Origin: an uncultured Alphaproteobacteria bacterium
GTDB taxonomy: Bacteria; Pseudomonadota; Alphaproteobacteria; HIMB59
Assembly (NCBI GenBank): GCA_902527545.1
Contig: CABZPR010000013.1
Coordinates: 1 to 32,659, forward strand
Length of the DNA stretch: 32,659 nucleotides
Direction: 5' to 3'
The number at the start of each line of letters is the position of its first letter. Positions within the stretch are counted from its first letter, which is position 1. The notes beneath the pieces are model-generated. The model was not told the origin of the DNA. It did no database searches and worked only from the letters and a program-made list of their open reading frames with translations. Of this stretch, positions 5,313 through 18,875 are shown piece by piece. The position numbers and the translations under genes were made by a program.

Positions 5313-5390
5313 GGGGGTGTAGTTCAGTTTGGTTAGAACGCCTGCCTGTCACGCAGGAGGTCGCGGGTTCGAGTCCCGTCGCTCCCGCCA
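5313..5390 (+). tRNA. tRNA-Asp (anticodon GUC), integration target
   Basis: A 78-base cloverleaf. Acceptor strand GGGGGTG pairs with CGCTCCC (two G-U pairs), the anticodon stem CCTGC/GCAGG encloses CTGTCAC with anticodon GTC, the T-loop is TTCGAGT and CCA is encoded. It starts 13 bases after tRNA-Val. Everything from 5346 on is repeated at 11157-11202, so the present 3' half is probably the copy brought in by the mobile element, leaving the tRNA functional. Confidence 0.97.
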
Positions 5391-5391
5391 C
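5346..5391 (+). repeat. attL core (3' half of tRNA-Asp)
   Basis: Begins CTGTCACGCAGG in the anticodon loop and ends one base past CCA. All 46 bases are identical to 11157-11202. Crossover probably occurred within this identity block. Confidence 0.93.
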
Positions 5392-5505
5392 AATAAGATA
5401 ATCTTGGGTTATATATTTCCTAACTTTTTCAATACTTATCTGTTCAACAAAAATTAATTGAATCAATAAACCATGTCGTCTAATTCCATAAAATTTCTTT
5501 CTAGT

Positions 5506-5525
5506 GGTGAACATATGGTGAGCAA
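5506..5525 (+). repeat. Candidate integrase arm site, left copy
   Basis: GGTGAACATATGGTGAGCAA, itself two copies of TGGTGARCA in tandem. It matches 11077-11096 at 18 of 20 positions and lies about 115 bases inside the left core. Confidence 0.5.
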
Positions 5526-5598
5526 AACCCCCCATGTACTTTTAGACAATAACAATGGTAGTGATTTCAATGCAGAACAGATTTCCTTATGGAATTTG

Positions 5599-5625
5599 AT
5601 CCCTAAATCAAAGGATATTTTTCCA
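5599..5625 (+). promoter_or_regulatory. Candidate operator, copy 1 (upstream of int)
   Basis: A 27-base motif with inverted arms ATCC and GGAT followed by ATTTTTCCA. It matches 7987-8013 without gaps at 23 of 27 positions. It ends about 50 bases before the integrase ATG, a position suited to regulation of int or to recombination-protein binding. Confidence 0.45.
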
Positions 5626-5676
5626 ACTCATAAGATGTTGAATCCAATTAGTAACCATACGAAAGGATACAACACA

Positions 5677-6936
5677 ATGACTAAGATAAGATTTAATAAA
5701 ACTAATATTGAAAGCCTTAAACCTAAGGAAAAAAGATACAGAGTTTATTCTGATGAAGTTAAAGGTTTATATGTGGAAGTATTAACCTCTGGTCGTAAAG
5801 CGTTCAGAGTTTTGTACAAGGTCAACTATATAAGCTATACCCACCAATTAGGGGTGTACCCCGTTATGACTCCGACCTATGCAGTCAAACGAGCTATGGA
5901 AGTTTTAACTTCTGTTTCTAAAGGAAACAATCCACAGTTAGACAAAATTAAGAAAAGAGAAGAACTTACTTTCAAAGAATATTTTATTGAAAGGTTTTTA
6001 CCTCTTCAGTTAGATAGGCGTTTCAGTAAAGAAGAGTTTACTATTAATGATGAAGGTAGGATTAAATGGCGTAAAGGCGTTCAGAAAAAGATCTATAATC
6101 TTACTGACGGATACAATGCTCACTTCAGGTTCGCTAAGTTTATCAATAAAAAAGTATCTGATATTACTGAAGAAGATGTAATTATTTTCTCTAAACAGAT
6201 AACTAAAAGCCATATCCACAATAGATTAATGAAAGAACTTAGTAGGTTTTTCAATACTACTTCGTTGAATGTTAATCCTGTCAGAAGAGCGTTAGCTACT
6301 GATATTCAGTTAAGACCAACCAAAGCAAGAACAGTTAAAGCTAAACCTGAAGAAGTTAAGGCTATTGGTAAGGCATTAGAGCTAATCAAAAGTGGTTATA
6401 TGCAAAACAATGGCTTTTATTACCAACCACAACCACAACAAGTAAACATTATAAAAATTCTTTTATTTGAAGGGTTAAGACCTAACGAAGTTTACAAAAT
6501 GGAGTGGTCAATGGTCAATGAATCGGGGGTATATGACACCGATACTAAAACGGGTGATAAAACTATTCCATTAACTAAACAATCTTTGAATATTCTTTCT
6601 ACTATTGAAAAGAAATCAAAGTTTGTCTTTCCGTCGCCCACGAACAACGATCAACACATCAAGAGCATTAGAAAGATATGGACTAAGGTCTTAGAACTAT
6701 CTGGAGTTAATCCTGAACTTAGAATTTATGATTTAAGAAATACATTTAGTTCAAAAGCCTCAATGATGTTTGGAACTTGGGTATCATCTAAGTTAACTAA
6801 TCACACAAACTCTAGAACAGTTGAGAAGCATTATTCTGATTTAGATAGTGGGGAAAGAGTATCTAGAAAGAATGAAGTAGCAGAAACATTTGAAAACCTT
6901 TTGCAAGGTGGGGGGAAGGTTGTCCAGATCAAATAA
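5677..6936 (+). CDS. int: Tyrosine recombinase / site-specific integrase (P4-like)
   Basis: Catalyses integration and excision of the element at tRNA-Asp. The protein has 419 residues from ATG 5677, which is preceded by GAAAGGA at 9 bases. An in-frame extension upstream to 5473 lacks a ribosome site and runs over repeat DNA, so I exclude it. The N-terminal part (about 1-90: SDEVKGLYVEVLTSGRKAFRV, then HQLGVYPVMTPTYA) matches the arm-binding domain of P4-type integrases. A SAM-like core-binding part follows. The catalytic domain shows Arg268 (LLFEGLRPNEVY), Arg354 (YDLRNTF), His376 (TNHT) and nucleophile Tyr386 (KHYSDL). The usual His of the H-x-x-R box is Tyr351, and the usual LGH is TNH. Both are tolerated variants in this family. 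The next gene overlaps its end. Confidence 0.95.
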   Translation: MTKIRFNKTNIESLKPKEKRYRVYSDEVKGLYVEVLTSGRKAFRVLYKVNYISYTHQLGVYPVMTPTYAVKRAMEVLTSVSKGNNPQLDKIKKREELTFKEYFIERFLPLQLDRRFSKEEFTINDEGRIKWRKGVQKKIYNLTDGYNAHFRFAKFINKKVSDITEEDVIIFSKQITKSHIHNRLMKELSRFFNTTSLNVNPVRRALATDIQLRPTKARTVKAKPEEVKAIGKALELIKSGYMQNNGFYYQPQPQQVNIIKILLFEGLRPNEVYKMEWSMVNESGVYDTDTKTGDKTIPLTKQSLNILSTIEKKSKFVFPSPTNNDQHIKSIRKIWTKVLELSGVNPELRIYDLRNTFSSKASMMFGTWVSSKLTNHTNSRTVEKHYSDLDSGERVSRKNEVAETFENLLQGGGKVVQIK

Positions 6937-7987
6937 GTATTTACATAAATTATTTGAGGAACATTGGAATAAAAACCAAATAAATCCCAAGGATTTTAAG
7001 CCTAGGAAAGACGGAAGCGTTCCACCTACGACTTACATCATGAATGGTCAGTTGACTATTAACTATGGTCAAATGAGAAACTCCCACAAAGAAGTTACGA
7101 TAAGACAGATAAAAAAATACAACATCAAATCAGCTTCAGAACTAATTGCTAAAGCTAGTATTGGTATTCCTGAACATGTTCCAAAGGTTGGTATGAACCT
7201 AACAAAGAAACAAGAAAAGGAATTATTTAGATTACAAGGCGTTGATGAAGCAGAAAAAGAATTAAATTTAAGTGGTGCTTTGCAAGAGAGTGAGTGGAAA
7301 CTCTATAAGTCTTTGCTTCCATTACATACTAAAGGTATGAACTATGTCGTTTACCAAATTAGGGTGTATGGGGTAAATAAAAAAAACCAATCCAAGTTTG
7401 ATAAACTCTATAAAGATGTTGCGTCTTTCTTTCTATTGATTGAAGGTCATCACAGAAGATACTTCAAAGAAGATCTTGATAAACTATCCAATGAATACCT
7501 AAGAGCTAAAACACATTTAGCAAAAGCAATAGAAGTTATAGAAGATAATAAGTCCAAGAGTGCTGTTTATAGCATGAAATATGGAGTGGGTAGAGGTCGT
7601 ATCTTTTCAATTAGAGTTATTTCTGAATTGTATAGACAGATAGCAGTTATGGATAAGTTAGTTAAACTGAATGATGAAGAGAAAACAATTAAGTCCAGAG
7701 TTCCTAATGAAACAGAGGATCTACAATATTTTTATTATCTATGTTGGAAAATGTATCAGTTGGTTGATGATAGTAAGTTCAAAACACCTAAATACAATAA
7801 CCAAAAACTATTTGCAGAGTTCGTGTATCATATTCAAAGCAGATTTACTTCAGTTGGTTCGCTAAGTAAAACATCAGAGTCTATAAGAAAGAAACCAAAG
7901 TTTAAGAAGATGAAATTTCTAAACTTACAATCAATTAAAACAGAAGTTACTTACAATAAAATATTCAAACAATTGTTTGGAAACTAA
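6920..7987 (+). CDS. Element-encoded protein of unknown function
   Basis: A basic, mostly helical protein of about 355 residues that I do not recognise. No signal peptide, membrane segment, nuclease motif, Walker motif or cysteine cluster is visible. The N-terminal third includes a possible HTH-like stretch (KEVTIRQIKKYNIKSASELIAKA). The middle third is aromatic and charged (FFLLIEGHHRRYFKEDLDKLSNEY, then YGVGRGRIFSIRVISELYRQIAVMDKLVKL). The C-terminus is very lysine-rich. There is no ATG before residue 40. I chose TTG 6920 because AAGGTGG lies 8 bases upstream. GTG 6908 and TTG 6890 are alternatives without such a site. It overlaps the end of int by 17 bases, so the two are probably cotranscribed. 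As the only sizeable gene outside the integration and replication modules, it is the best candidate for an accessory function such as interference, packaging or regulation. That is inference. Confidence 0.75.
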   Translation: MSRSNKYLHKLFEEHWNKNQINPKDFKPRKDGSVPPTTYIMNGQLTINYGQMRNSHKEVTIRQIKKYNIKSASELIAKASIGIPEHVPKVGMNLTKKQEKELFRLQGVDEAEKELNLSGALQESEWKLYKSLLPLHTKGMNYVVYQIRVYGVNKKNQSKFDKLYKDVASFFLLIEGHHRRYFKEDLDKLSNEYLRAKTHLAKAIEVIEDNKSKSAVYSMKYGVGRGRIFSIRVISELYRQIAVMDKLVKLNDEEKTIKSRVPNETEDLQYFYYLCWKMYQLVDDSKFKTPKYNNQKLFAEFVYHIQSRFTSVGSLSKTSESIRKKPKFKKMKFLNLQSIKTEVTYNKIFKQLFGN

Positions 7988-8013
7988 TCCTGAACTCATA
8001 GGATATTTTTCCA
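7987..8013 (+). promoter_or_regulatory. Candidate operator or weak terminator, copy 2
   Basis: ATCCT (7987-7991) and AGGAT (8000-8004) form a 5-bp hairpin followed by ATTTTTCCA, overlapping the stop of the preceding gene. The hairpin plus T-run could end transcription. The near-identical copy upstream of int (5599-5625) instead suggests a protein-binding site. It ends 25 bases before the AlpA-like ATG. Confidence 0.45.
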
Positions 8014-8038
8014 TTTCTAGTTATTCCATATTATCTGT

Positions 8039-8272
8039 ATGGAAACACAAACTACACAAAGCGAAACATCAGAGTTACTAACTACTGATCAAGTAGCAAA
8101 TCTCTATAAGCAATTTTCAGCTAATGCTCTACGCATACAGCGTTATAGAGGTGAGTCGCCTTTTCCCTACATCAAGCTAGGAAAGAAGGTTTTTTACAAC
8201 AAAGCAGACATAGAAAGAGTATTGAACAATCACACAATTGACGAGTATGAAACCTATACTGATCAACGCTGA
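8039..8272 (+). CDS. AlpA / excisionase-like helix-turn-helix protein
   Basis: A 77-residue DNA-binding protein of the MerR-like winged HTH type used by excisionases and AlpA regulators. The run TTDQVANLYKQFSANALRIQR is the HTH, and FPYIKLGKKVFYNKADIERVL is the typical wing followed by the family's Y-x-x-x-D-I-x-x-x-L ending. Such proteins direct excision with the integrase or switch on the element's genes. No Shine-Dalgarno site precedes the ATG. A TATTAT box at 8029-8034 lies so close that the mRNA could be nearly leaderless, which is inference. It starts the right-hand gene block (HTH, primase, helicase, small protein), and the primase start lies inside its 3' end. Confidence 0.82.
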   Translation: METQTTQSETSELLTTDQVANLYKQFSANALRIQRYRGESPFPYIKLGKKVFYNKADIERVLNNHTIDEYETYTDQR

Positions 8273-9119
8273 ACGCTTCGTTTCAATGTATTTTCCAGAC
8301 CATAAAATCAAGGAAAACGCCAAAGAAATCAGAATAGGAAACAAAGGTTCTAAGGTTGTTATGAAAGACGGATCGGGGTTCTTTGACCACGAAGAAGGTA
8401 ACTATACTTCCATGTTTAATGAGATCATGAGAAGAGAAAACTTTTCTTATCCTGAAGCATGTACTTATTGCAAAGATAACAACCTATTTATTTCTGATCA
8501 TGCTTTTAGATACTACAAAAAACCAATAAAAACTTTGAAGAAAGAAATCTTTGAAAAGAGTTTAATTCCTTTTGGGTTTACTAATGGTCATGAGTATCTG
8601 AAGAGAAGAGGTATTATTGATAGTGCCTACCCAGAGAATACATTGTATTGGAACGACTCAGAAAAATATCTTGCTCATAAGTTAGTAGATATAAACCTAC
8701 AAACTATTGGTTATCAGAGGATATTTGTCAGTTCTGATTTTAAAAAGATACCACCCCCAAAGATCTATGGAACTTCTAAAGGTGGTAAGACTGTTATCAA
8801 TATTCACGATTATGAAATGATTACTTTAGTTGAAGGACTAGAGGACGGACTAACACTTCACCAATCATACTTACTAAACAATGTTAAAAGAACTGTTTGG
8901 GTAATGACAGGAACATCTAATTTTCTAAATGTAGAAATACCTGAAAGCACGAAGAGAGTTATTATTGCTTTAGATAATGATGAAGCTGGTGAGAAGATGT
9001 TTGAAAAATGTAAAGAGCGTTTCAGTAATCTCAACAAAGCAGTATCCAGACTTCGACCAAAGCCTGAATACAAAGATTTTAATGATGAATTAAGAGGTAT
9101 TAAATTTAATGCAAACTAA
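8247..9119 (+). CDS. Toprim-domain primase-like protein
   Basis: Likely makes primers for, or otherwise serves, replication of the element together with the helicase gene that follows. The protein has 290 residues from ATG 8247; a TTG at 8238 is possible. The C-terminal Toprim fold has the conserved Glu196 (TLVEGLEDGLTLHQ) and the metal-binding pair Asp243/Asp245 (IIALDNDEAGEKMFEK), ending KDFNDELRG, all typical of DnaG/P4/T7-type primases. The N-terminal half has GFFDHEEGNYTSMFNEIM, resembling the region after the zinc motif in phage primases, but there is no four-cysteine zinc ribbon, so it may be zinc-independent or recruit DNA through another protein. It overlaps the HTH gene by 26 bases and the helicase by 11. 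It could be a degenerate primase, but the catalytic acids are intact. Confidence 0.87.
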   Translation: MKPILINAERFVSMYFPDHKIKENAKEIRIGNKGSKVVMKDGSGFFDHEEGNYTSMFNEIMRRENFSYPEACTYCKDNNLFISDHAFRYYKKPIKTLKKEIFEKSLIPFGFTNGHEYLKRRGIIDSAYPENTLYWNDSEKYLAHKLVDINLQTIGYQRIFVSSDFKKIPPPKIYGTSKGGKTVINIHDYEMITLVEGLEDGLTLHQSYLLNNVKRTVWVMTGTSNFLNVEIPESTKRVIIALDNDEAGEKMFEKCKERFSNLNKAVSRLRPKPEYKDFNDELRGIKFNAN

Positions 9120-10239
9120 TGGAAAAGCAATAGATCTTCCAACGGAAGAGATAGTAATTAAACAGAAAACATTCCCAAGTTGTACACTTGGTGAATTAGC
9201 AAAGATGAACATTGAACCACGAAAACCGATTATTGATCCGTTGATCATGGAAGGTTCTTCAATGGAAATAAATGGTGGAACAGGAATTGGAAAAACTTGG
9301 TTCACTCTTGAAATGTTATGTTCAATTGCAACGGGTGAAAGTTTCCTAGGAAAGTATGAAGTAAAAAATCCTAGACCTGTCTATTACATTGACGGGGAAA
9401 TGCCTTTCGACTCAATTAGAGATAGAGTTAATATGATTATGGGTAGGTATATTTATAAATACAAAGTTTCTGAAATACCTTTGCATTTTAGTAACCCACT
9501 TCTATTTGATAACAATTATATCCCTAAGATTAACGATCCGAAGGTCACTCAATCACTAATCAAAGATCAAATAAAACGAATGTCAGACATACATGGAAGC
9601 CCGATATTTATATGTTTTGACAACCTTTCTTGCCTTACAGATTACAAAGAAAACGATAATGATGATTGGACTTCAATGTTGGATATGTACACAGAATTAA
9701 AACATGAAAAGCATTCTATCTGTCATGTACACCATGTTGGTAAGGGTGGTCATCAAAGAGGAGCTAGTAGGAAGCATGACGCTTTGGACTGTGTTATTCA
9801 CTTGAAACGACCAGAGGACTATGACGCTTCTGAAGGTGCAGTATTCAATGTTAGGTTTGATAAGCATAGACACTTCGCGGGTGAGGACGCTAGAAGTTTC
9901 AAATGCTCTATAAAAGTTGATCAAGATTTAAACCAAGTAAAATGGGATATATCAAAATATAAAGATCTTGCTCATGAAGAATTACTAACTGCCTACTGTA
10001 ATGGACTACCTGATATTACATACACCAAGTTAGAAGGTGAGTTTGGAATATCTAAGAGTGCTATTGCAAGGACTATTAAACAATGTGTCACCAATGGTCT
10101 TTACATATCTAAAATGGAAGAGATCTATGGTGATGAATGGGAAAACTACGATAAGCTAATCAACAAAAAGAAAAAGAAAGGAGTAGCATTATCACAAAAC
10201 GAGGAAGAAAGAGGGATCAGTCCAGAAATACCATTTTAA
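9109..10239 (+). CDS. RepA/DnaB-like hexameric helicase (AAA_25 / RecA fold)
   Basis: Presumed replicative helicase of the element. It has 376 residues. Walker A is GGTGIGKT (Lys62), and YYIDGEMP follows as the RecA-fold strand with an acidic residue. Walker B is FICFDNLS (Asp171), and HVHHVGKGG (from His206) is the histidine-rich sensor seen in plasmid RepA helicases of the RSF1010 type. RGASRKHDALD matches the motif carrying the arginine finger in that group. The C-terminal 90 residues look like a winged helix (TKLEGEFGISKSAIARTIKQC) and end in a lysine-rich tail. The ATG overlaps the primase stop by 11 bases, so primase and helicase are coupled. Similar RecA-fold proteins occur in regA/repA plasmid loci and phage satellites. 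The exact substrate is unknown. Confidence 0.88.
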   Translation: MQTNGKAIDLPTEEIVIKQKTFPSCTLGELAKMNIEPRKPIIDPLIMEGSSMEINGGTGIGKTWFTLEMLCSIATGESFLGKYEVKNPRPVYYIDGEMPFDSIRDRVNMIMGRYIYKYKVSEIPLHFSNPLLFDNNYIPKINDPKVTQSLIKDQIKRMSDIHGSPIFICFDNLSCLTDYKENDNDDWTSMLDMYTELKHEKHSICHVHHVGKGGHQRGASRKHDALDCVIHLKRPEDYDASEGAVFNVRFDKHRHFAGEDARSFKCSIKVDQDLNQVKWDISKYKDLAHEELLTAYCNGLPDITYTKLEGEFGISKSAIARTIKQCVTNGLYISKMEEIYGDEWENYDKLINKKKKKGVALSQNEEERGISPEIPF

Positions 10240-10379
10240 CATTTCCCAATCCCACACCCTTAAGCTATGGGAAATGGGAAAAGCCTAAGAAGGTTATCTG
10301 TATTGCTTCAGAGATAAGGAAGTCACTTCAAGAGAGTGATGACAGAGAATTAGAACAATTATTTTGGAAGAGAGTATAA
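10155..10379 (+). other. Coding-like frame without a standard start
   Basis: A 74-codon open frame, in the -1 frame relative to the helicase, runs from 10155 to a TAA at 10377-10379, one base before the next gene's ATG. Its last part (KWEKPKKVICIASEIRKSLQ, then ESDDRELEQLFWKRV) has normal protein-like composition. No ATG, GTG or TTG occurs in the frame. AAGGAG at 10178-10183 stands 7 bases before an ATC (10191) and 4 before an ATT (10188). Either a rare start codon or a -1 slip at the helicase's AAA/AAG lysine run could express it. It could equally be chance. Confidence 0.35.
10242..10280 (+). repeat. Imperfect inverted repeat after the helicase gene
   Basis: TTTCCCA at the left pairs with TGGGAAA at the right, with an inner TCCC/GGGA pairing across a 15-20 base loop. 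It follows the helicase stop by 2 bases. It may be an RNA hairpin modulating the next gene, or an origin element. There is no T-run, so a simple terminator is unlikely. Confidence 0.4.
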
Positions 10380-10380
10380 A

Positions 10381-10566
10381 ATGGATCGTTACTTATCGGA
10401 CTATGAAAAACTTCTTCATGAATACGAAAGGATTGAGTCAAAACTTAATAGCCTTTTTATTCAGACTGATCTATCAGAGTCAGCTAGAAAGAAGTTAGAA
10501 ATAAGTTTGAAGAGAAGATTAAAAACACTACTACCTGAACTAAGAAAAAAAGAAATAGAAGTTTAA
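10381..10566 (+). CDS. Small helical protein of unknown function
   Basis: A 61-residue charged protein beginning MDRYLSDYEKLLHEYERI, with heptad-like leucines suggesting a short coiled coil or helical hairpin, and a basic second half (KRRLKTLLPELRKKEIEV). It has no membrane segment or recognised domain. GGAAGAGAG stands about 6 bases before the ATG and is a reasonable ribosome site. It is the last plus-strand gene of the replication block. Possible roles include a replication accessory or regulator, but the sequence does not say. Confidence 0.6.
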   Translation: MDRYLSDYEKLLHEYERIESKLNSLFIQTDLSESARKKLEISLKRRLKTLLPELRKKEIEV

Positions 10567-11085
10567 TATCGTTTCTAGTTCATTCGTGTCGTTACTTAAA
10601 TTCTTCCAAATTTGATGAATTTAATGCGAAATTAATCGAAATACTTCCCTATACAAATAAAATGCTCTCTCTACGAGGGGGTTATTAGGGTTATTTTGTT
10701 AATGTTTTCAATTGTTGATACGGAGTTCTTAGTAGTTTTTCCGTATTTCTCGCACAGAACTCTCGTAGGTAATGTAACCTTTTGTTACCCTGAAATGTTT
10801 ACTTTTGTTAACTTTGAAAGCTACGCATAGGGGGGGGTTCAAAATTACTAAAGGTACACTTTAATACATGTTTAACACGCATTTTTGAATCGTAGGGTAC
10901 GAAGTAAATGCTACCCCCGTAACAAGTTAACATGAGGCTAACACCATGCTCTATGATTCCTAAAACAGCGTTTCGCGGTGCATGATCCATGGTCAAATAT
11001 CAATGGATATTCTGTTCACCAATATTGGAATATTTGAATCATTATTTCGTAAAATGTGGTAGTGTTTCACTAGAAAGGTGAACAC
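10567..11085. other. Gene-poor right end of the element, rich in inverted repeats
   Basis: No convincing plus-strand gene. It holds a possible broken minus-strand frame (10729-10996) and several inverted repeats: CTACGAG (10671-10677) with CTCGTAG (10762-10768); ATACGGA (10718-10724) with TCCGTAT (10740-10746); CATGTTTAAC (10867-10876) with GTTAACATG (10926-10934), one base looped; AATATC/GATATT (10996-11011); and the palindrome CCAATATTGG (11019-11028). A run of eight G occurs at 10830-10837. The cluster is compatible with a replication origin and recombination-protein sites; neither is proven. Confidence 0.5.
10729..10996 (-). pseudogene. Possible Mor-like regulator broken at a homopolymer run
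   Basis: On the minus strand a frame starts at TTG 10996 or ATG 10990 and encodes HGVSLMLTCYGGSIYFVP. This resembles the GG-x-x-x-Y-x-P element of Mor/C phage transcription activators. At the run of eight C (10837-10830 on this strand) the frame leads to an early stop after about 62 residues. With seven C it would continue 31 more codons as CVAFKVNKSKHFRVTKGYI followed by TYESSVREIRKNY, which looks like the helix-turn-helix end of Mor proteins, stopping at 10731-10729. It may be a recent frameshift, phase variation, a sequencing error or coincidence. The family resemblance is short. Confidence 0.3.
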
Positions 11086-11086
11086 T
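11061..11086 (+). repeat. Hairpin overlapping the right arm site
   Basis: AGTGTTTCAC (11061-11070) pairs with GTGAACACT (11078-11086) with one bulged T, around loop TAGAAAG. It lies about 70 bases from the att core and may be a binding site for a recombination or excision protein. Confidence 0.45.
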
Positions 11087-11096
11087 TGGTGAGCAA
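11077..11096 (+). repeat. Candidate integrase arm site, right copy
   Basis: GGTGAACACTTGGTGAGCAA, 18/20 identical to 5506-5525 and in the same orientation. In the excised circle the two copies would flank the att core, as arm-type sites do. Confidence 0.5.
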
Positions 11097-12231
11097 CTCT
11101 TATGGGTGTTTAAAAAGGCTTGGTAATATAGGCTTAAAACAACCTAGGATTCCTTACTGTCACGCAGGAGGTCGCGGGTTCGAGTCCCGTCGCTCCCGCC
11201 ACTCAAGAACATTTATTTTATTTTTTTTAACTTTTTCATTATTTTCATGCTCTTTATATAAATCAAAAGATGTTTATGGATTAAAGACTCTTGGTATGAG
11301 TTTTAGCGATACGACAATTAAAGGATTTAAAATTGACCCAGGTTGGAATTTTAGTTCAAAAGAGGAAATAAAAAAATATCAAAGAAAAAAAAACTTGGTA
11401 CTTTTTCAACTTCAGAGAGAGAAAACAAGATACGGAGATACTGCTTTTTTTATCCAAGCACCAGGAGATGAGTGTTATAACAAATTAAAAGATTGCTCAC
11501 GACCAAATGGCGAAAAACAAAAAAGAGTAGAGGCAGGAACCGATTATGGTTTTCAAGGAGAAATATGGTTATCTTATTCTTTTTTAATCACTGAAAATTA
11601 TGAATTAAATAATGATAGCGCTATGAATAAATCAATATTGCAATTTCATAGCACAGAGAGTTTTTTTGGTCCTATGTTTATGCTTCAGATAGACAAGAAG
11701 AGAGGTTTGCTTTGGAGACATGAATCTAGTGAAGGAGTTATTATTATTGAAGAAGGGAATGATGATTGCTCACCTGGTGCTGGAGGCCCAGAAGATACTG
11801 ATAAAAGAATTTTTTGTGAATCTAGGCATGATTGGTATCAAATAATCTCTGCTAAAAATTTACAAAGAAATAAATGGTATGATTTAGTCTTCAATATTAA
11901 TTTTAATAAAAAGGATATTTCAAAAGCTTTCCATAAAATTTGGTTAAATGGAAAGTTATTGCATTACAGAAAAAACCAAACACTTTGGAAAGATCAAAAA
12001 GGCGTAAAAAACTCAGATAATTTGGCAAATTTTAAATTTGGTATTTATGGTTCAAGATTGGATGGCTCTTATCAATCTATGTATGCTGATGAAATTCACT
12101 TTGGAACTGAATGTGAGGACCTTTTAATAGAAAATATTGGCTACTATTGTAGTAATCTAAAAAAACAAGCAATAAATGAAACATTTCCAATCTTAACAGA
12201 AGATAGAGTTGCTTATTACTCTAAAGAATAA
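11086..12231 (+). CDS. Polysaccharide-lyase-like lipoprotein (heparin lyase I / PL20-type fold)
   Basis: Probably a secreted, lipid-anchored carbohydrate-active protein. After an odd N-terminus, TFILFFLTFSLFSC is a hydrophobic signal ending in an LFSC lipobox. The mature part has features of the concanavalin-like jelly-roll lyases: FQGEIWLSYSFLI, SILQFHSTESFFGPMFMLQI, NKWYDLVFNINF, then an ending YADEIHFG. Two close acidic/cysteine loops may form disulfides. The start is unresolved. Between the signal sequence and the tRNA fragment (11157-11202) there is no ATG, GTG or TTG. The frame runs back through the fragment to TTG 11086 or GTG 11089 in the element, with AAAGG about 7 bases ahead. The ATG at 11296 would delete the signal peptide. 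The gene is host DNA, as it lies outside the right repeat. Family call is moderate. Confidence 0.65.
   Translation: MVSNSYGCLKRLGNIGLKQPRIPYCHAGGRGFESRRSRHSRTFILFFLTFSLFSCSLYKSKDVYGLKTLGMSFSDTTIKGFKIDPGWNFSSKEEIKKYQRKKNLVLFQLQREKTRYGDTAFFIQAPGDECYNKLKDCSRPNGEKQKRVEAGTDYGFQGEIWLSYSFLITENYELNNDSAMNKSILQFHSTESFFGPMFMLQIDKKRGLLWRHESSEGVIIIEEGNDDCSPGAGGPEDTDKRIFCESRHDWYQIISAKNLQRNKWYDLVFNINFNKKDISKAFHKIWLNGKLLHYRKNQTLWKDQKGVKNSDNLANFKFGIYGSRLDGSYQSMYADEIHFGTECEDLLIENIGYYCSNLKKQAINETFPILTEDRVAYYSKE
11157..11202 (+). repeat. attR core (tRNA-Asp 3' fragment)
   Basis: Identical over 46 bases to 5346-5391. It covers the anticodon loop to CCA, but the bases before it (CCTTA) do not match tRNA-Asp, so no tRNA can form here. 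It is the displaced original 3' end of the host tRNA gene. Confidence 0.93.
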
Positions 12232-13822: not shown

Positions 13823-14997
13823 TGTCAGAGAATTTTAAACCTGTAACTCTTAACTTTGGACCCCAACATCCTGCTGCTCATGGAGTTCTTAGACTACTTG
13901 TACAATTAGAAGGGGAGGTAGTTAATAAAGCCGAACCTCACATTGGACTTTTACATAGAGGAACTGAAAAATTAATTGAACAAAAAACATATACTCAAGC
14001 TATTCCATATTTTGATCGTCTTGATTATGTTTCTCCAATGTGTCAAGAACATGCCTTTGCTTTAGCTGTTGAGAATTTATTAAATATCGAAGCACCTAAA
14101 CGAGCTCAATATATCAGAGTTATGTTTGCAGAAGTTACTAGGATACTAAATCATTTATTAAATATTCCTGCATTTGCAATGGATATAGGAGCTGCTACTC
14201 CAATGCTGTGGGCTTTCGAAGAAAGAGAAAAAATGTTGGAATTCCATGAAGCTGTATCTGGTGCCAGATTTCATGCAGCTTACTTTCGTCCTGGTGGAGT
14301 TCACCAAGACTTGCCTGAAAATTTGCTAGAAAAAATGAAAAACTATTTTACTAATTTTCCAAAATTTATAGATACGCTTGAAGAACTACTTACTGAGAAT
14401 AGAATATTCAAACAACGATCTGTTGATATAGGTATTTTAAAAAAGGATGATGCAATAAGACTAAGTTGCAGTGGCCCTGTTCTTCGTGCTAGTGGTGTGG
14501 CTTGGGATTTAAGAAAATCTCAACCTTATGATGTTTATGAGGATTTAGATTTCGACATACCAGTCGGAAAAACTGGTGACACCTATGATAGATATTTGGT
14601 TAGAATGGAAGAGATGAGAGAGTCAGTTAAGATAATCTTACAGTGTATTGAAAATATTCCAGAAGGACCCGTAATGGTTGAGAATAATAAAATTACTCCA
14701 CCTAAAAGATCAGAAATGAAAAATTCAATGGAAGCTATTATTCATCATTTTAAATTATTTACCGAGGGTTATAGGGTTCCTGAAGGTATTACATACAAAA
14801 GCGTAGAGGCACCAAAAGGAGAATTTGGTGTTGTATTAGTTTCAGATGGAAGTTCCAAACCATATCGATGCAAGCTGAGAGCACCCGGCTTTGTTCATTT
14901 ACAGGCATTACATTATTTATCAAAGGGCCACCAACTAGCTGACGTACCATCAATTTTAGGAAGCCTAGATATTGTATTTGGAGAGGTAGACAGATGA
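13822..14997 (+). CDS. nuoD: NADH-quinone oxidoreductase subunit D
   Basis: Complex I 49-kDa homologue, 391 residues, forming the quinone-binding pocket with NuoB. The start [21 protein letters not shown] contains the conserved GPQHPAAHG loop that contacts quinone. [46 protein letters not shown] and the C-terminal [10 protein letters not shown] are also invariant family segments. I chose ATG 13822 because the upstream in-frame extension only re-reads nuoC. The stop TGA overlaps the nuoE ATG (ATGA). Full length, no anomalies. Confidence 0.97.
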
Positions 14998-15581
14998 GTA
15001 GTAATCATCCAGGTTTATCTAATAATTTTTCTAGATCAGGCGAAAAATTCTCTTGGTCAAAAGATAACTTAAGATCAATTAAAAATATAATTTCTAAATA
15101 CCCTAAAGGTAGAGAACAAAGTGCAGTTATGCCTCTTCTTTATTTGGCTCAAGAACAAAACAATAATTGGATAAGTATCGAATGTATAGAAACAATCGCT
15201 GAAACTTTAAATATGCCTAAAATAAGAGTCACAGAAGTGGCCTCATTTTATTCAATGTATAATACAAGACCTGTTGGAGAAAATCTTGTTCAGATTTGTA
15301 GAACCTCTCCTTGTTGGCTTAGAGGTTCAAATAAGATCACGAAAACTATTTGCAAAGAAACAAAATGTGAAATTAACGATACCAGTGACGATAATAAATT
15401 TACAGTTGTTGAAGTAGAGTGCCTTGGTGCTTGCTCAAATGGACCTATGATTCAAATCAATAATGATTTCTTTGAGGATTTAGATGAAGAGTCTACAAAA
15501 AAAATTATAGACAATATTAAAGAGGGAAAACCAAATGTCATTGGTTCACAAAAAGGCAGGAGAAGTTCAGAGAATGCTTAA
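14994..15581 (+). CDS. nuoE: NADH-quinone oxidoreductase subunit E
   Basis: Thioredoxin-fold 2Fe-2S subunit (24-kDa homologue), 195 residues, part of the NADH-oxidising module with NuoF. The four ligands are seen in [11 protein letters not shown] and [15 protein letters not shown]. The region [24 protein letters not shown] is characteristic. The ATG overlaps the nuoD stop by four bases. The C-terminal tail ([12 protein letters not shown]) is polar and overlaps the nuoF start. The length fits the alphaproteobacterial form, slightly longer than E. coli NuoE. Confidence 0.95.
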
Positions 15582-16845
15582 TGAAAAAGATAAAGTTTTT
15601 CAAAACCTTCATGGTTTTCAAGAACCCTTTATAGAGGGAGCTTTAAAAAGAGGTTCCTGGTCAAACACAAAAGAAATTTTGTCTAAAGATCAAAATGATA
15701 TTATCGAATTAGTTAAATCCAGTCAGTTAAGAGGAAGAGGTGGAGCTGGATTTTCTACAGGTCTTAAATGGTCATTTATGCCAAAGAATACTGGTAAACA
15801 GCATTATTTGGTTGTGAATGCTGATGAGTCAGAACCTGGTACTTGCAAAGATAGAGAAATTATTAGAAATGACCCGCATACTCTTGTAGAAGGGTGCTTG
15901 ATAGCTTCGTACGCAATTCAAGCAACTAAATGCTACATATATATAAGGGGAGAATACCATCACGAATATGTCCAATTAGAAAAGGCAATTGAAGAGGCAT
16001 ATGAACGAGGCTTTATTGGAAAAAATTCTTGTGGTAGCGGATTTGATTTTGATCTTTATGTTCATAGAGGTGCTGGAGCTTACATATGTGGAGAAGAGAC
16101 AGCTCTTTTAGAGAGTTTAGAAGGAAAAAAAGGACAACCAAGATTAAAACCTCCTTTTCCTGCTGGTGTAGGTTTGTATGGCATGCCGACAACTATTAAC
16201 AATGTGGAGTCAATCGCAGTAGTTCCAACTATTTTAAGAAAAGGCCCAGATTGGTTTAAGTCAATTGGCGCTGAAAATAATACAGGCACAAAAATTTTTT
16301 GCATATCTGGTAACGTTAATAAACCATGCACAATAGAAGAGGAAATGGGAATACCACTTAAAGAATTAGTTGAAAAGCATTGTGATGGAGTTGAGGGAGG
16401 ATGGGATAATTTAAAGGCGATAGTACCAGGAGGTTCTAGTACCCCAATGCTTCCAAAAAATATTTGTGAGTCAGTTCTGATGAATTTTGATGATCTAAAA
16501 GCTAATGGCTCAGGTTTAGGTACAGCAGGAGTGATTGTTGTTAACAAGAATAATGATATTGCTGAGGTAATTGAGAGATTTGCTCACTTTTACAAGCATG
16601 AAAGTTGTGGTCAATGTACACCTTGTAGAGAAGGAACAGGCTGGATGCATAGAATGATGCAGAGATTAGTTAGAGGAGAGATTTCTCCTGAACAAATAGA
16701 GCTTTTAGAAAATGTTACAAAGCAAGTAGAGGGTCATACTATCTGCGCTTTAGGAGATGCAGCAGCTTGGCCTATACAAGGACTCATTAAAAATTTTAAA
16801 TCAGAGTTAATAAGTAAATACAATAAAAAGTTAAAAGCTTCATGA
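15574..16845 (+). CDS. nuoF: NADH-quinone oxidoreductase subunit F
   Basis: Complex I 51-kDa homologue, 423 residues, binding NADH, FMN and cluster N3, where NADH is oxidised. [19 protein letters not shown] and [19 protein letters not shown] are the NADH/FMN motifs. [15 protein letters not shown] followed by HTICALGD supplies the four cysteines of N3. ATG 15574 gives [14 protein letters not shown], matching the usual alphaproteobacterial N-terminus (ML-x-D-K-D-R-I-F). The in-frame ATG 15535, with GAGGG upstream, would add 13 residues and cannot be ruled out. It overlaps nuoE by 8 bases and nuoG by 4. Confidence 0.95.
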
Positions 16846-18875
16846 GTGACGATCTAATAAATATTAAAGTTAATCAAAAAGAAATTCAGGTAGATAAAAA
16901 TCTGACTGTGATGCAAGCCTGTGAAATTGCTGGTGAAGAAATTCCAAGATTTTGCTATCACGACAAACTCTCTATAGCTGGTAACTGTAGAATGTGTTTA
17001 GTAGAAATTGAAAAAGCTCCAAAATTAGTGTCTTCCTGCACTATGCCTCTAATGGATGGCATGTCGATAATCACCAATTCTGAAAAAGTAAATGCAGGTA
17101 GAAAAGGTGTAATGGAGTTTTTGTTAATTAATCACCCCTTAGATTGCCCAATATGTGATCAAGGTGGAGAATGCGATTTACAGGATCAGGCAATGTACTA
17201 CGGTTTCGACAAATCAAGATATAAAGAGAATAAAAGGGCTGTTGATAATAAAAATATGGGACCTCTGGTAAACACTATAATGACTAGATGCATCCATTGC
17301 ACTAGGTGTGTGAGATTTGCCACTGAAGTAGCAGGAGTTCCAGAATTAGGTATGTTAGGTAGGGGAGAGAATGCAGAAATTACCACTTACCTTGAACAAT
17401 CAATCACTTCAGAGCTTTCAGGTAACGTAATTGATTTATGCCCTGTAGGAGCACTTACGAGTAAGCCATATCAATTTAAAGCGCGTCCTTGGGAGTTAAA
17501 ACGTACAGACTCAATCGATATCTTCGATAGTGTTGGTTCTAATATCAGAGTCGATAGTAGAGCGGAGGAGATTTTAAGAGTTACACCAAGAACAAATGAA
17601 TACATAAATGAAGAGTGGATATCAGATAAAGTTCGATTTAACTATGATGGTTATTACCAACAAAGAATTGACACACCCTATATTAAAGAAGACCAAAAAT
17701 TATCAATATCAAATTGGGATGAGTCATTAAAAGTTTTAAAAGATAAATTAAAAACTTTAAAACCATTAGCTTTGATTGGTGAGCACGTAGATTTAGAAAC
17801 CGGATATGCAATCAAAAAATTTATGTCAAATTATGGTAAAGACAATGTGGAGTGCCGAACTGATAATCATACTATCCTAGAAAGTTTAGATAGTTATCGT
17901 TTTAACACACCTTTGAACGATATAGAAAATTCAGATTTAATTATACTTGTAGGAACAAACCCAAAAATAGAAACACCAATTATAAATCATAAGATATTTA
18001 AAGCTTACAATAATGATGCAAAAGTATTTAACATTGGTGAAAATATATCTTTGAACTATAAAACAGAGTATCTAGGAGAGAGTTTATCAAGTTTAAATAA
18101 TGAAAATCTAATCAAAGCATTAAAAAAATCTAGTAACCCTCTTATGATTATTGGCTCTGCTTTTTTAAATAAAATTAAAAATATTAAAACTTTAAAATCT
18201 ATTTTTTCATATGCTGATAAATACAAAGTTATTACAAAAGAAAAAAATAATCTAAATTTTTTAAATCCATATGCCTCACGTGTCGGCCAATTGATTATAG
18301 GCAATACTACTAATAACCTTTGTGAGCCGTTTTCTAATTTAAAAAAAGATAATTTTAAATTAGTTCTTTCTTTTGGTTCAGAACATATTGCCAACCAGCA
18401 ATTCAATAACTGTTTTAAAGTTTATTTTGGCCATCATGGTGATGATGGAGCGATGGGGTCTGATATTGTTTTGCCAACCCCTCTTTATACAGAGAAAAAT
18501 GGTACTTTTGTAAATATTGAAGGCAGACCTCAAGAAGCAAAAAAATGCCACAATCCAATTGGATCCGCCAAAGAAGAGTGGTCGATACTAAAAAAACTAT
18601 CAGATGAATTATCTTTTGAATTTATCCCAAATACATTTGATCAATTAAGATCTGAGTTATTTGACAAATACCCAGTCCTGTCTGATTATCATGAAATTAT
18701 TACTGTTGAAAATTCAACTTCAATTACACCAGATATTGAATTTGAAGATTGTAAGGCAGAATATCCTGTAAGTAATTTTTATATGTCAGATGTGATTTCA
18801 AAAAATTCTGTCACTATGGCCAAATGTGTTGAGGAAATAATCTCAACCCCATCTCTTTTGGAGAAATCAGCATAA
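16842..18875 (+). CDS. nuoG: NADH-quinone oxidoreductase subunit G
   Basis: Large iron-sulfur subunit of the complex I NADH module (75-kDa homologue), 677 residues. The N-terminal ferredoxin domain has Cys in [22 protein letters not shown] and SSCTMP for the 2Fe-2S cluster N1b. The next domain has [21 protein letters not shown] and [10 protein letters not shown], then [14 protein letters not shown], giving the ligands of N4 and N5. The rest is a molybdopterin-oxidoreductase-like domain without an obvious catalytic role, as usual; it is the least conserved part here and is rich in Lys/Asn. It overlaps nuoF by 4 bases and nuoH by 1. Length is normal for alphaproteobacteria. Confidence 0.95.

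Follow-up and report, generated by a model that had tools for sequence, protein, structure and literature searches.

What is the 5.8-kb segment that lies behind a tRNA-Asp gene in the chromosome of a streamlined alphaproteobacterium, and how can it spread with a gene set devoted to integration and replication? The question was addressed for positions 1-32,659 of contig CABZPR010000013.1, and this whole stretch of 32,659 nucleotides is called the window; its own genome is labelled G000, and its relatives are labelled G001 onward. Comparison of the assemblies shows the integrated state, empty sites, a second copy, and the horizontal spread of a 2.7-kb derivative, which is called the mini-element. 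The explanation that we prefer, with a probability of about 55%, is that the segment is a minimal, helper-dependent integrative element of the PICMI-like kind, and that its integrase acts in trans to mobilise non-autonomous derivatives as well.

The first-pass annotation of the window had bounded the element by a perfect 46-bp repeat of the tRNA-Asp 3' half, and this boundary is borne out, as the core occurs at two places only in the window within 3 mismatches (shuffles, 0/100). The site and the ends of the element are composed as follows.

5313-5390, + strand: tRNA-Asp(gtc), the integration target (ARAGORN)
5346-5391, + strand: left copy of the attachment (att) core, tRNA-Asp 3' half, 46 bp, perfect repeat
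11157-11202, + strand: right copy of the att core, 46 bp, perfect repeat
5392-5676, + strand: left arm, holding the 20-bp arm motif and the 36-bp near-repeat
5506-5525 and 11077-11096: 20-bp paired motif, one per arm (0/100 shuffles)
5590-5625, before int, and 7978-8013 (+), just before alpA: 36-bp near-repeat (81%)
10567-11156: non-coding right end, ~590 bp, holding the arm motif at 11077-11096
10598-10642: 45-bp sequence, single in the window, flanking the hydrolase cargo in the mini-elements

The span between the core copies is 5.8 kb, and its G+C content (~0.32-0.37 per kb) differs little from that of the surrounding DNA. The 20-bp paired motifs are predicted integrase arm sites, and the 36-bp near-repeat, which is found in G024 as well, is proposed as an operator shared by int and alpA. 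The single 45-bp sequence might represent an empty cargo site. The right end of the window is 98.2-98.5% identical to those of G034 and G024 and 92.7% identical to that of G009.

Between the two ends, Pfam and PHROG comparisons agree with the gene set of the first-pass annotation, namely an integrase, an unknown protein, and AlpA-like, Toprim and RepA-like proteins, where the AlpA-like assignment is the weaker one.

5677-6936, + strand: tyrosine integrase (int), 419 amino acids (aa); Pfam Arm-DNA-bind_3 1e-11 and Phage_integrase 1e-10; PHROG 1 integrase 6.6e-32
6920-7987, + strand: int-overlapping protein, 355 aa with TTG 6920 taken as the start; 17-nt overlap with int
8039-8272, + strand: AlpA-like helix-turn-helix protein (alpA), 77 aa, proposed excisionase; HTH_17 6.2e-5; PHROG 66 4.6e-5
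8247-9119, + strand: Toprim primase-like protein, 290 aa; Toprim_3 1.3e-15; PHROG 510 DNA primase 1e-13
9109-10239, + strand: RepA-like AAA_25 ATPase, 376 aa; AAA_25 5.4e-23; PHROG 906 DNA polymerase/primase 3.8e-18
10381-10566, + strand: 61-aa open reading frame (ORF), kept in the mini-elements

Both Pfam matches of the integrase and the Toprim_3 and AAA_25 matches are above the cut-off, and PHROG 66 is described as 'excisionase and transcriptional regulator'. The integrase is 99% identical to the G024 copy and 45% identical to that of a sister family at tRNA-Arg. For the int-overlapping protein, Pfam gives nothing at E ≤ 1, and PHROG gives a single weak hit (0.016), the function of which is unknown; the protein is 95% identical in G024, and among 60 relatives only G000 and G024 carry it. 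The AlphaFold models of this protein and of its tRNA-Arg counterpart have a mean predicted local distance difference test score of 35.8 and 41.7, respectively, and are unusable. A search for solved relatives of the RepA-like and Toprim proteins gave 0 at E ≤ 0.001. A -1 frameshift that would carry RepA beyond its stop codon was weighed by eye on the reading frames and set aside. The 61-aa ORF has counterparts of 97-98% identity in G024 and in all five mini-elements. The gene overlaps suggest two putative units, one of int and the overlapping gene and the other of alpA, Toprim and RepA. The first-pass annotation had stated that no virion, conjugation or partition gene is visible, and none was found in the element by the Pfam/PHROG scans. 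Its count of only one sizeable unknown besides the named genes stands, and its list lacked the 61-aa ORF, the ~590-bp right end and the arm motifs.

The occupancy of the site was surveyed in 52 family genomes of one genus, which is probably HIMB59, a group formerly named AEGEAN-169 or SAR11 group V according to an excerpt of PMC12416821. The full element is present in 2/52 genomes (G000 and G024), the hydrolase-bearing mini-element in 5/52 (G034, G066, G009, G006 and G071), and the left arm with other or unknown content in 5/52 (G031, G011, G020, G063 and G064, where the tRNA-Asp contig of G064 stops 575 bp further on). The site is empty with a lyase gene adjacent in 14/52 genomes and empty with nuoA adjacent, at 56-103 bp, in 7/52. 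Other genes or a contig end stand at the site in 8/52 (G010, G013, G016, G019, G029, G030, G061 and G072); the tRNA-Asp of G025 (1/52) is at a contig edge, and this region was outside the comparison; and a full tRNA-Asp was not found in 10/52 (G001, G002, G003, G015, G021, G022, G026, G032, G033 and G070).

All 14 lyase-type empty sites align uninterrupted to the joined window flanks over ~798-800 bp, with identities of 94.9-97.4% and 0-4 gaps. The second full copy, in G024, is 94.7% identical over 5.9 kb, and the two full copies have the same ends and the same gene content, with every frame open. These results, together with the horizontal spread of the derivative, support the proposal that the segment is an integrated mobile element, and in the 52 genomes the genes were found neither within a larger prophage nor as conserved chromosomal genes. 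At E ≤ 1e-50, the integrase was found in 1/385 genomes of the class, which is its own genome, and at E ≤ 0.001 it was found in 0/23 sister-family genomes. Short weak matches occur in congeners G014, over 63 residues (3.6e-9), and G035 (5.6e-4). When 12 regions were scanned for a remnant of the right att site, 2 (G009 and G010) exceeded 100 shuffles and 10 did not.

The mini-element is 2.67 kb long in G034 and G066, where perfect 46-bp cores and exact arm motifs stand on both sides. In window coordinates, it consists of the left arm to 5586, the segment 10241-10642, the hydrolase gene, 10598-10642 once more, and then the right end. The hydrolase gene encodes 475 aa of the dienelactone hydrolase family (4.5e-8), and the mini-elements lack the integrase, overlapping, AlpA-like, Toprim and RepA-like genes. 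The deletion junction is identical in 5/5 mini-elements and sits at a 6-bp ATTTCC common to both sides; the second of the 45-bp copies that flank the cargo remains in 4/5, as G071 lost that end. The comparison indicates that the mini-element is derived from the full type, the genes from int to repA being lost via one shared junction and the hydrolase being gained. The reverse order, with the mini form as the ancestor, was considered and is disfavoured because a full-type left arm passes the junction in G063 (76-80%) and because the tRNA-Arg family has int directly behind the left arm. A 49-aa ORF spans the junction in the five mini-elements (L055:1382-1531; window counterpart, 10239-10379); its C-terminal part is open in the window too, where no ATG/GTG/TTG start was seen by eye, and this ORF is probably a by-product.

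The movement of the mini-element between species is indicated by the difference in identity between the element and the coding flanks. For G034 versus G009, the flanks give 82.5% (lon), 83.0% (nuoA), 83.1% (nuoB), 79.3% (nuoC), 78.9% (nuoD) and 90.8% (hup), whereas the element gives 96.7% in the left arm, 98.9% in the segment of the 61-aa ORF, 97.6% in the cargo and 93.4% in the right end. For G066 versus G009, the corresponding element values are 100, 99.2, 97.5 and 93.3%, against 78.7-83.0% for lon and nuo and 90.8% for hup. For G071 versus G009, the ORF segment reaches 99.2% and the cargo 96.8%, with 86.4% in the left arm and 91.1% in a 45-bp right stub, and the contrast is clear in the former two and not in the arm or the stub. 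In 100-bp windows of the G034/G009 alignment, the identity inside the element is mostly 92-100%, with 85% in the first window and 84% and 61% in two near the right end; outside, it is 75-88% at 1,100-600 bp upstream, 88-97% from hup to the tRNA and 80-83% in nuo. Because the non-coding ends are more alike than the coding flanks, constraint alone hardly explains the likeness, and the far greater likeness of the mini-element than of the flanks between G034 and G009 indicates that the mini form moved without an integrase of its own. It thus crossed a host divergence of ~20% after losing the integrase.

This movement suggests that the mini version rides on the full element, and we infer that the integrase acts on it in trans. 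In the preferred explanation, the integrase would recombine the 46-bp core in the tRNA-Asp 3' end, and the AlpA-like protein, perhaps with the int-overlapping protein, would direct excision, as the genetics of PICMI imply. The Toprim and RepA-like proteins, judged from their domains, would amplify the excised circle. Transfer would occur via a borrowed vehicle; by analogy, this would most likely be the particle of a helper phage, with passive packaging of the DNA, and such carriage by a phage is unproven. The same kind of integrase would probably move the 2.7-kb derivative, which keeps both ends and the cargo hydrolase without the integrase or replication genes.

The closest likeness is to PICMI. 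As far as the excerpted text of PMC10803314 goes, excision of PICMI115 needs int, iolg, which overlaps int, and alpA, and its replication needs prim; the particles of a virulent phage take up its 6.1-kb DNA as a concatemer of 8 copies. A gene overlapping int is given there for 21/35 PICMI subfamilies, integration at fis is called a hallmark, and complete elements are described as known from Vibrio genomes only. The window element is like these in its size of ~6 kb, its order int - overlapping gene - alpA - primase and its flanking direct repeats; capsid-remodelling genes are likewise not seen, and relatives carry cargo. The set of int, alpA and primase in a small element was found at the domain level (Pfam/PHROG), and the gene overlapping int, by 17 nt if TTG 6920 is the start, is compared by position. 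Unlike PICMI, the window element adds a RepA-like ATPase, non-autonomous derivatives and a tRNA-Arg sister family, and any helper or packaging that it uses is putative. The statement of the first-pass annotation that no named type matches therefore stands for the fis site and the Vibrio host and fails for the gene order, which is shared with PICMI according to the excerpted text (PMC10803314). If the element is a satellite, PICMI-like architecture extends beyond Vibrio.

The window element was also compared with other known systems. Genes for capsid-size or packaging redirection, as in PICI/P4-like satellites, have no Pfam or PHROG match among the 6 element proteins. The relaxase or conjugation genes of integrative and conjugative elements (ICE) and integrative and mobilizable elements (IME) were not found among the element proteins by Pfam/PHROGs, and the NCBIfam TraI match of the Toprim protein (25.9 bits; cut-off, 929.85) was taken as no relaxase. 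Tycheposons, reportedly of Hackl et al. 2023, and VEIMEs, reportedly of Eppley et al. 2022, are also to be considered. Tycheposons have cargo modules and streamlined marine hosts, as the window element and its relatives do. The tyrosine recombinase at a tRNA gene, a tycheposon feature described in PMC10872708, is found in the window too. VEIMEs, a name that appears in PMC11389934 and PMC10803314, are integrative elements of small size from the sea, for which transport inside virions has been proposed, and the window element resembles them in this description. Integrase-less, att-bounded islands beside integrase-bearing ones are described for ssrA of Dehalococcoides in part of PMC3146451. The cis-mobilizable feature of att sites on both sides without an integrase is seen in the mini form, with perfect cores in G034 and G066. 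The accretion in those ssrA islands, as the same excerpt presents it (PMC3146451), resembles G024, in which another left end, with a restriction-type gene, comes after the full element. G024 is the only genome in which a tandem with an integrase-bearing element was found, and its second unit is a different one; the five mini-elements stand alone. The occurrence of the integrase-less form alone in five genomes and its movement between species point to action in trans.

Several observations weigh against the preferred explanation. PICMI uses fis in Vibrio, and the window element uses tRNA-Asp in a streamlined alphaproteobacterium. A close relative of int or Toprim was not found in IMG/VR, and neither the right-end 29-mer nor a 43-base core stretch was found there. 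The HTH_17 match of the AlpA-like protein scores 23.6 bits, below the Pfam cut-off of 27. The right ends are decayed in 3/5 mini-elements (G009, which retains 28 bp of perfect right core, and G006 and G071, which lost most of the right end), and the G071 left arm is 86-89% like the others, the arm motif being absent within 3 mismatches. The two full copies cannot, on the available alignments, tell vertical from horizontal descent (G000 vs G024: flanks 92.7-98.9%, element 94.7%). The integrase of the window family was found in 0/5 mini-element genomes, which are 69-91% complete, so that it could be missing from the assemblies, and transformation with crossovers near the ends may have been the route of the mini-element.

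The searches of phage records point in the same direction as those of IMG/VR. The right end matched nothing but a single archaeal virus, over 54 bases (E 0.01, two records); the other queries gave, for the int-overlapping gene, 0 matches, for Toprim, 1 record with 24.5% identity, and for the RepA-like protein, 90 records, all below 60% identity and at 21-28% among the 15 matches listed. A scan of IMG/VR for the arm motif gave 15 contigs, the fetched pieces of which encode 0/13 query proteins, and these were taken as chance. The negative results on a viral link are weak evidence because DNA of this kind might not be classed as viral in IMG/VR. The idea of a phage satellite in the first-pass annotation is plausible by analogy with PICMI, and no close relative in IMG/VR or phage records accompanies it. 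Among the literature matches listed, the element or mini form in HIMB59 is undescribed, and the tycheposon and VEIME sets may overlap with it.

The same results bear on a plasmid-like integrative element, or one borne by vesicles or transformation, which would integrate, replicate and spread without a phage by vesicles or natural uptake. A gene content of integration and replication only and the lack of a close phage or IMG/VR relative fit such an element, whereas the order int - overlapping gene - alpA - primase matches an experimentally shown satellite in the excerpted report (PMC10803314); we regard this explanation as rather unlikely. The origin from a larger phage in tRNA-Asp, leaving a decayed prophage, would account for the integrase, AlpA-like and replication genes, which occur in prophages too and have PHROG matches. 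Two copies with the same ends, the same genes and open frames, the lack of virion genes, and the phage searches, in which the overlapping gene had 0 matches and Toprim and RepA only weak ones, make this origin very improbable.

A different alternative concerns the mini-elements, which would not have moved themselves if it was the full element that moved and the mini form then arose in each lineage by deletion or homologous exchange. The 6-bp ATTTCC could favour repeated deletion at the same place; however, 5/5 mini-elements share the junction and the cargo gene, 4/5 have the second 45-bp copy, and the cargo of G009 is 96.8-97.6% identical to the others, where lon and nuo reach 78.7-83.1%, which makes independent formation improbable. 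An ocean clade with genomes of ~1.3-1.4 Mb gains a defined element for which empty sites, full copies and non-autonomous derivatives are found at one locus, and direct tests could then show how few genes satellite-type spread needs and how an integrase-less form rides on it.

The sister family at tRNA-Arg consists of elements in G000 itself, G005, G008 and G064, which are 7.9-9.8 kb long and are each bounded by perfect 46-47-bp copies; the target is tRNA-Arg(tct) by ARAGORN in G000, G005 and G008, and G064 has the same core. Compared with the window element, the integrase is 45% and the AlpA-like protein 33% identical. The order in the 4 elements is int, an overlapping gene of 253-258 aa, variable cargo, an AlpA-like gene and a 281-aa protein, which has a sub-threshold DUF1376 match and is taken as a putative replication protein. 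The overlapping gene has a TTG start and an 8-nt overlap with int in 4/4 elements. Homology of the int-overlapping genes of the two families was examined and is unsupported (best BLASTP, 15.4 bits, E 1.7; forced alignment, 21-22%), so they are compared by position only.

For G064 versus the other three, the livG-like flank is 85.2-86.4% identical, and the values reach 96.0-96.7% for int, 94.8-97.4% for alpA and 96.0-97.4% for the replication gene; the greater likeness of the genes than of the flank indicates movement of the tRNA-Arg family as well. Between the modes of descent, the remaining pairs do not discriminate. In G005, the overlapping gene is 73-74% identical to the rest over 483 aligned bases, with int at 96-99%, and this divergence beside a conserved int suggests that the overlapping gene was swapped as a module. 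The G005 element also carries the hydrolase of the mini-elements, with 96.8-97.7% DNA identity, beside the 45-bp sequence, so that cargo is common to elements with different integrases and target tRNAs. A 32-base pattern from the 45-bp sequence occurs in 8/52 genomes at places inside these elements. A two-tier system, in which the cargo-free 5.8-kb element serves the 2.7-kb relative bearing a secreted-type hydrolase in trans, and in which docking at the 45-bp sequence passes cargo between the tRNA-Asp and tRNA-Arg elements, is a tentative and somewhat doubtful proposal; the full element would supply the integrase, and perhaps also replication.

Near-identical 40-base stretches encoding the signal peptide MKTLLALLLLIPSLSW begin ORFs that diverge downstream, as judged by eye. 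The stretch is found in 23/52 family genomes with ≤3 mismatches, and it sits in the cargo of 4/4 tRNA-Arg elements examined. It also occurs in 8 other regions, 7/8 of which hold a tRNA or transfer-messenger RNA within 4-6 kb, a proportion uncontrolled for tRNA density, and its loci include contigs C16 and C1 of G000. The DNA-level identity suggests that this stretch may be a common, movable 5' end of cargo genes.

At the tRNA-Asp locus, the genes lon (named by eye), hup and tRNA-Val stand ahead of the target. A polysaccharide-lyase-like gene (PF14099, 7.8e-16) at 11206-12231 lies between the site and nuoA, and it varies among the congeners, being present in some, with nuoA directly after the tRNA-Asp site elsewhere. 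In G024, the second left arm (88% over 247 bp) starts at the core shared with the full element (14286-17966 of the fetched region L008) and has behind it the gene for a ResIII/Mrr-type restriction protein of 1107 aa, which is a probable defence cargo of the tandem array; a further core copy was not found between this arm and nuoA. In G031, the left arm (85% to the window) is followed by genes for a MoxR-type ATPase, a 318-aa protein without a Pfam match and a TgpA-type transglutaminase, and a right core was not found; the arrangement appears to be a cellular operon adjoining an element scar. In G010, a 36-base core remnant (83%) stands ~680 bp behind tRNA-Asp, after a 144-aa ORF (contig C3, L047:1800-1835), and is the trace of another insertion at tRNA-Asp.

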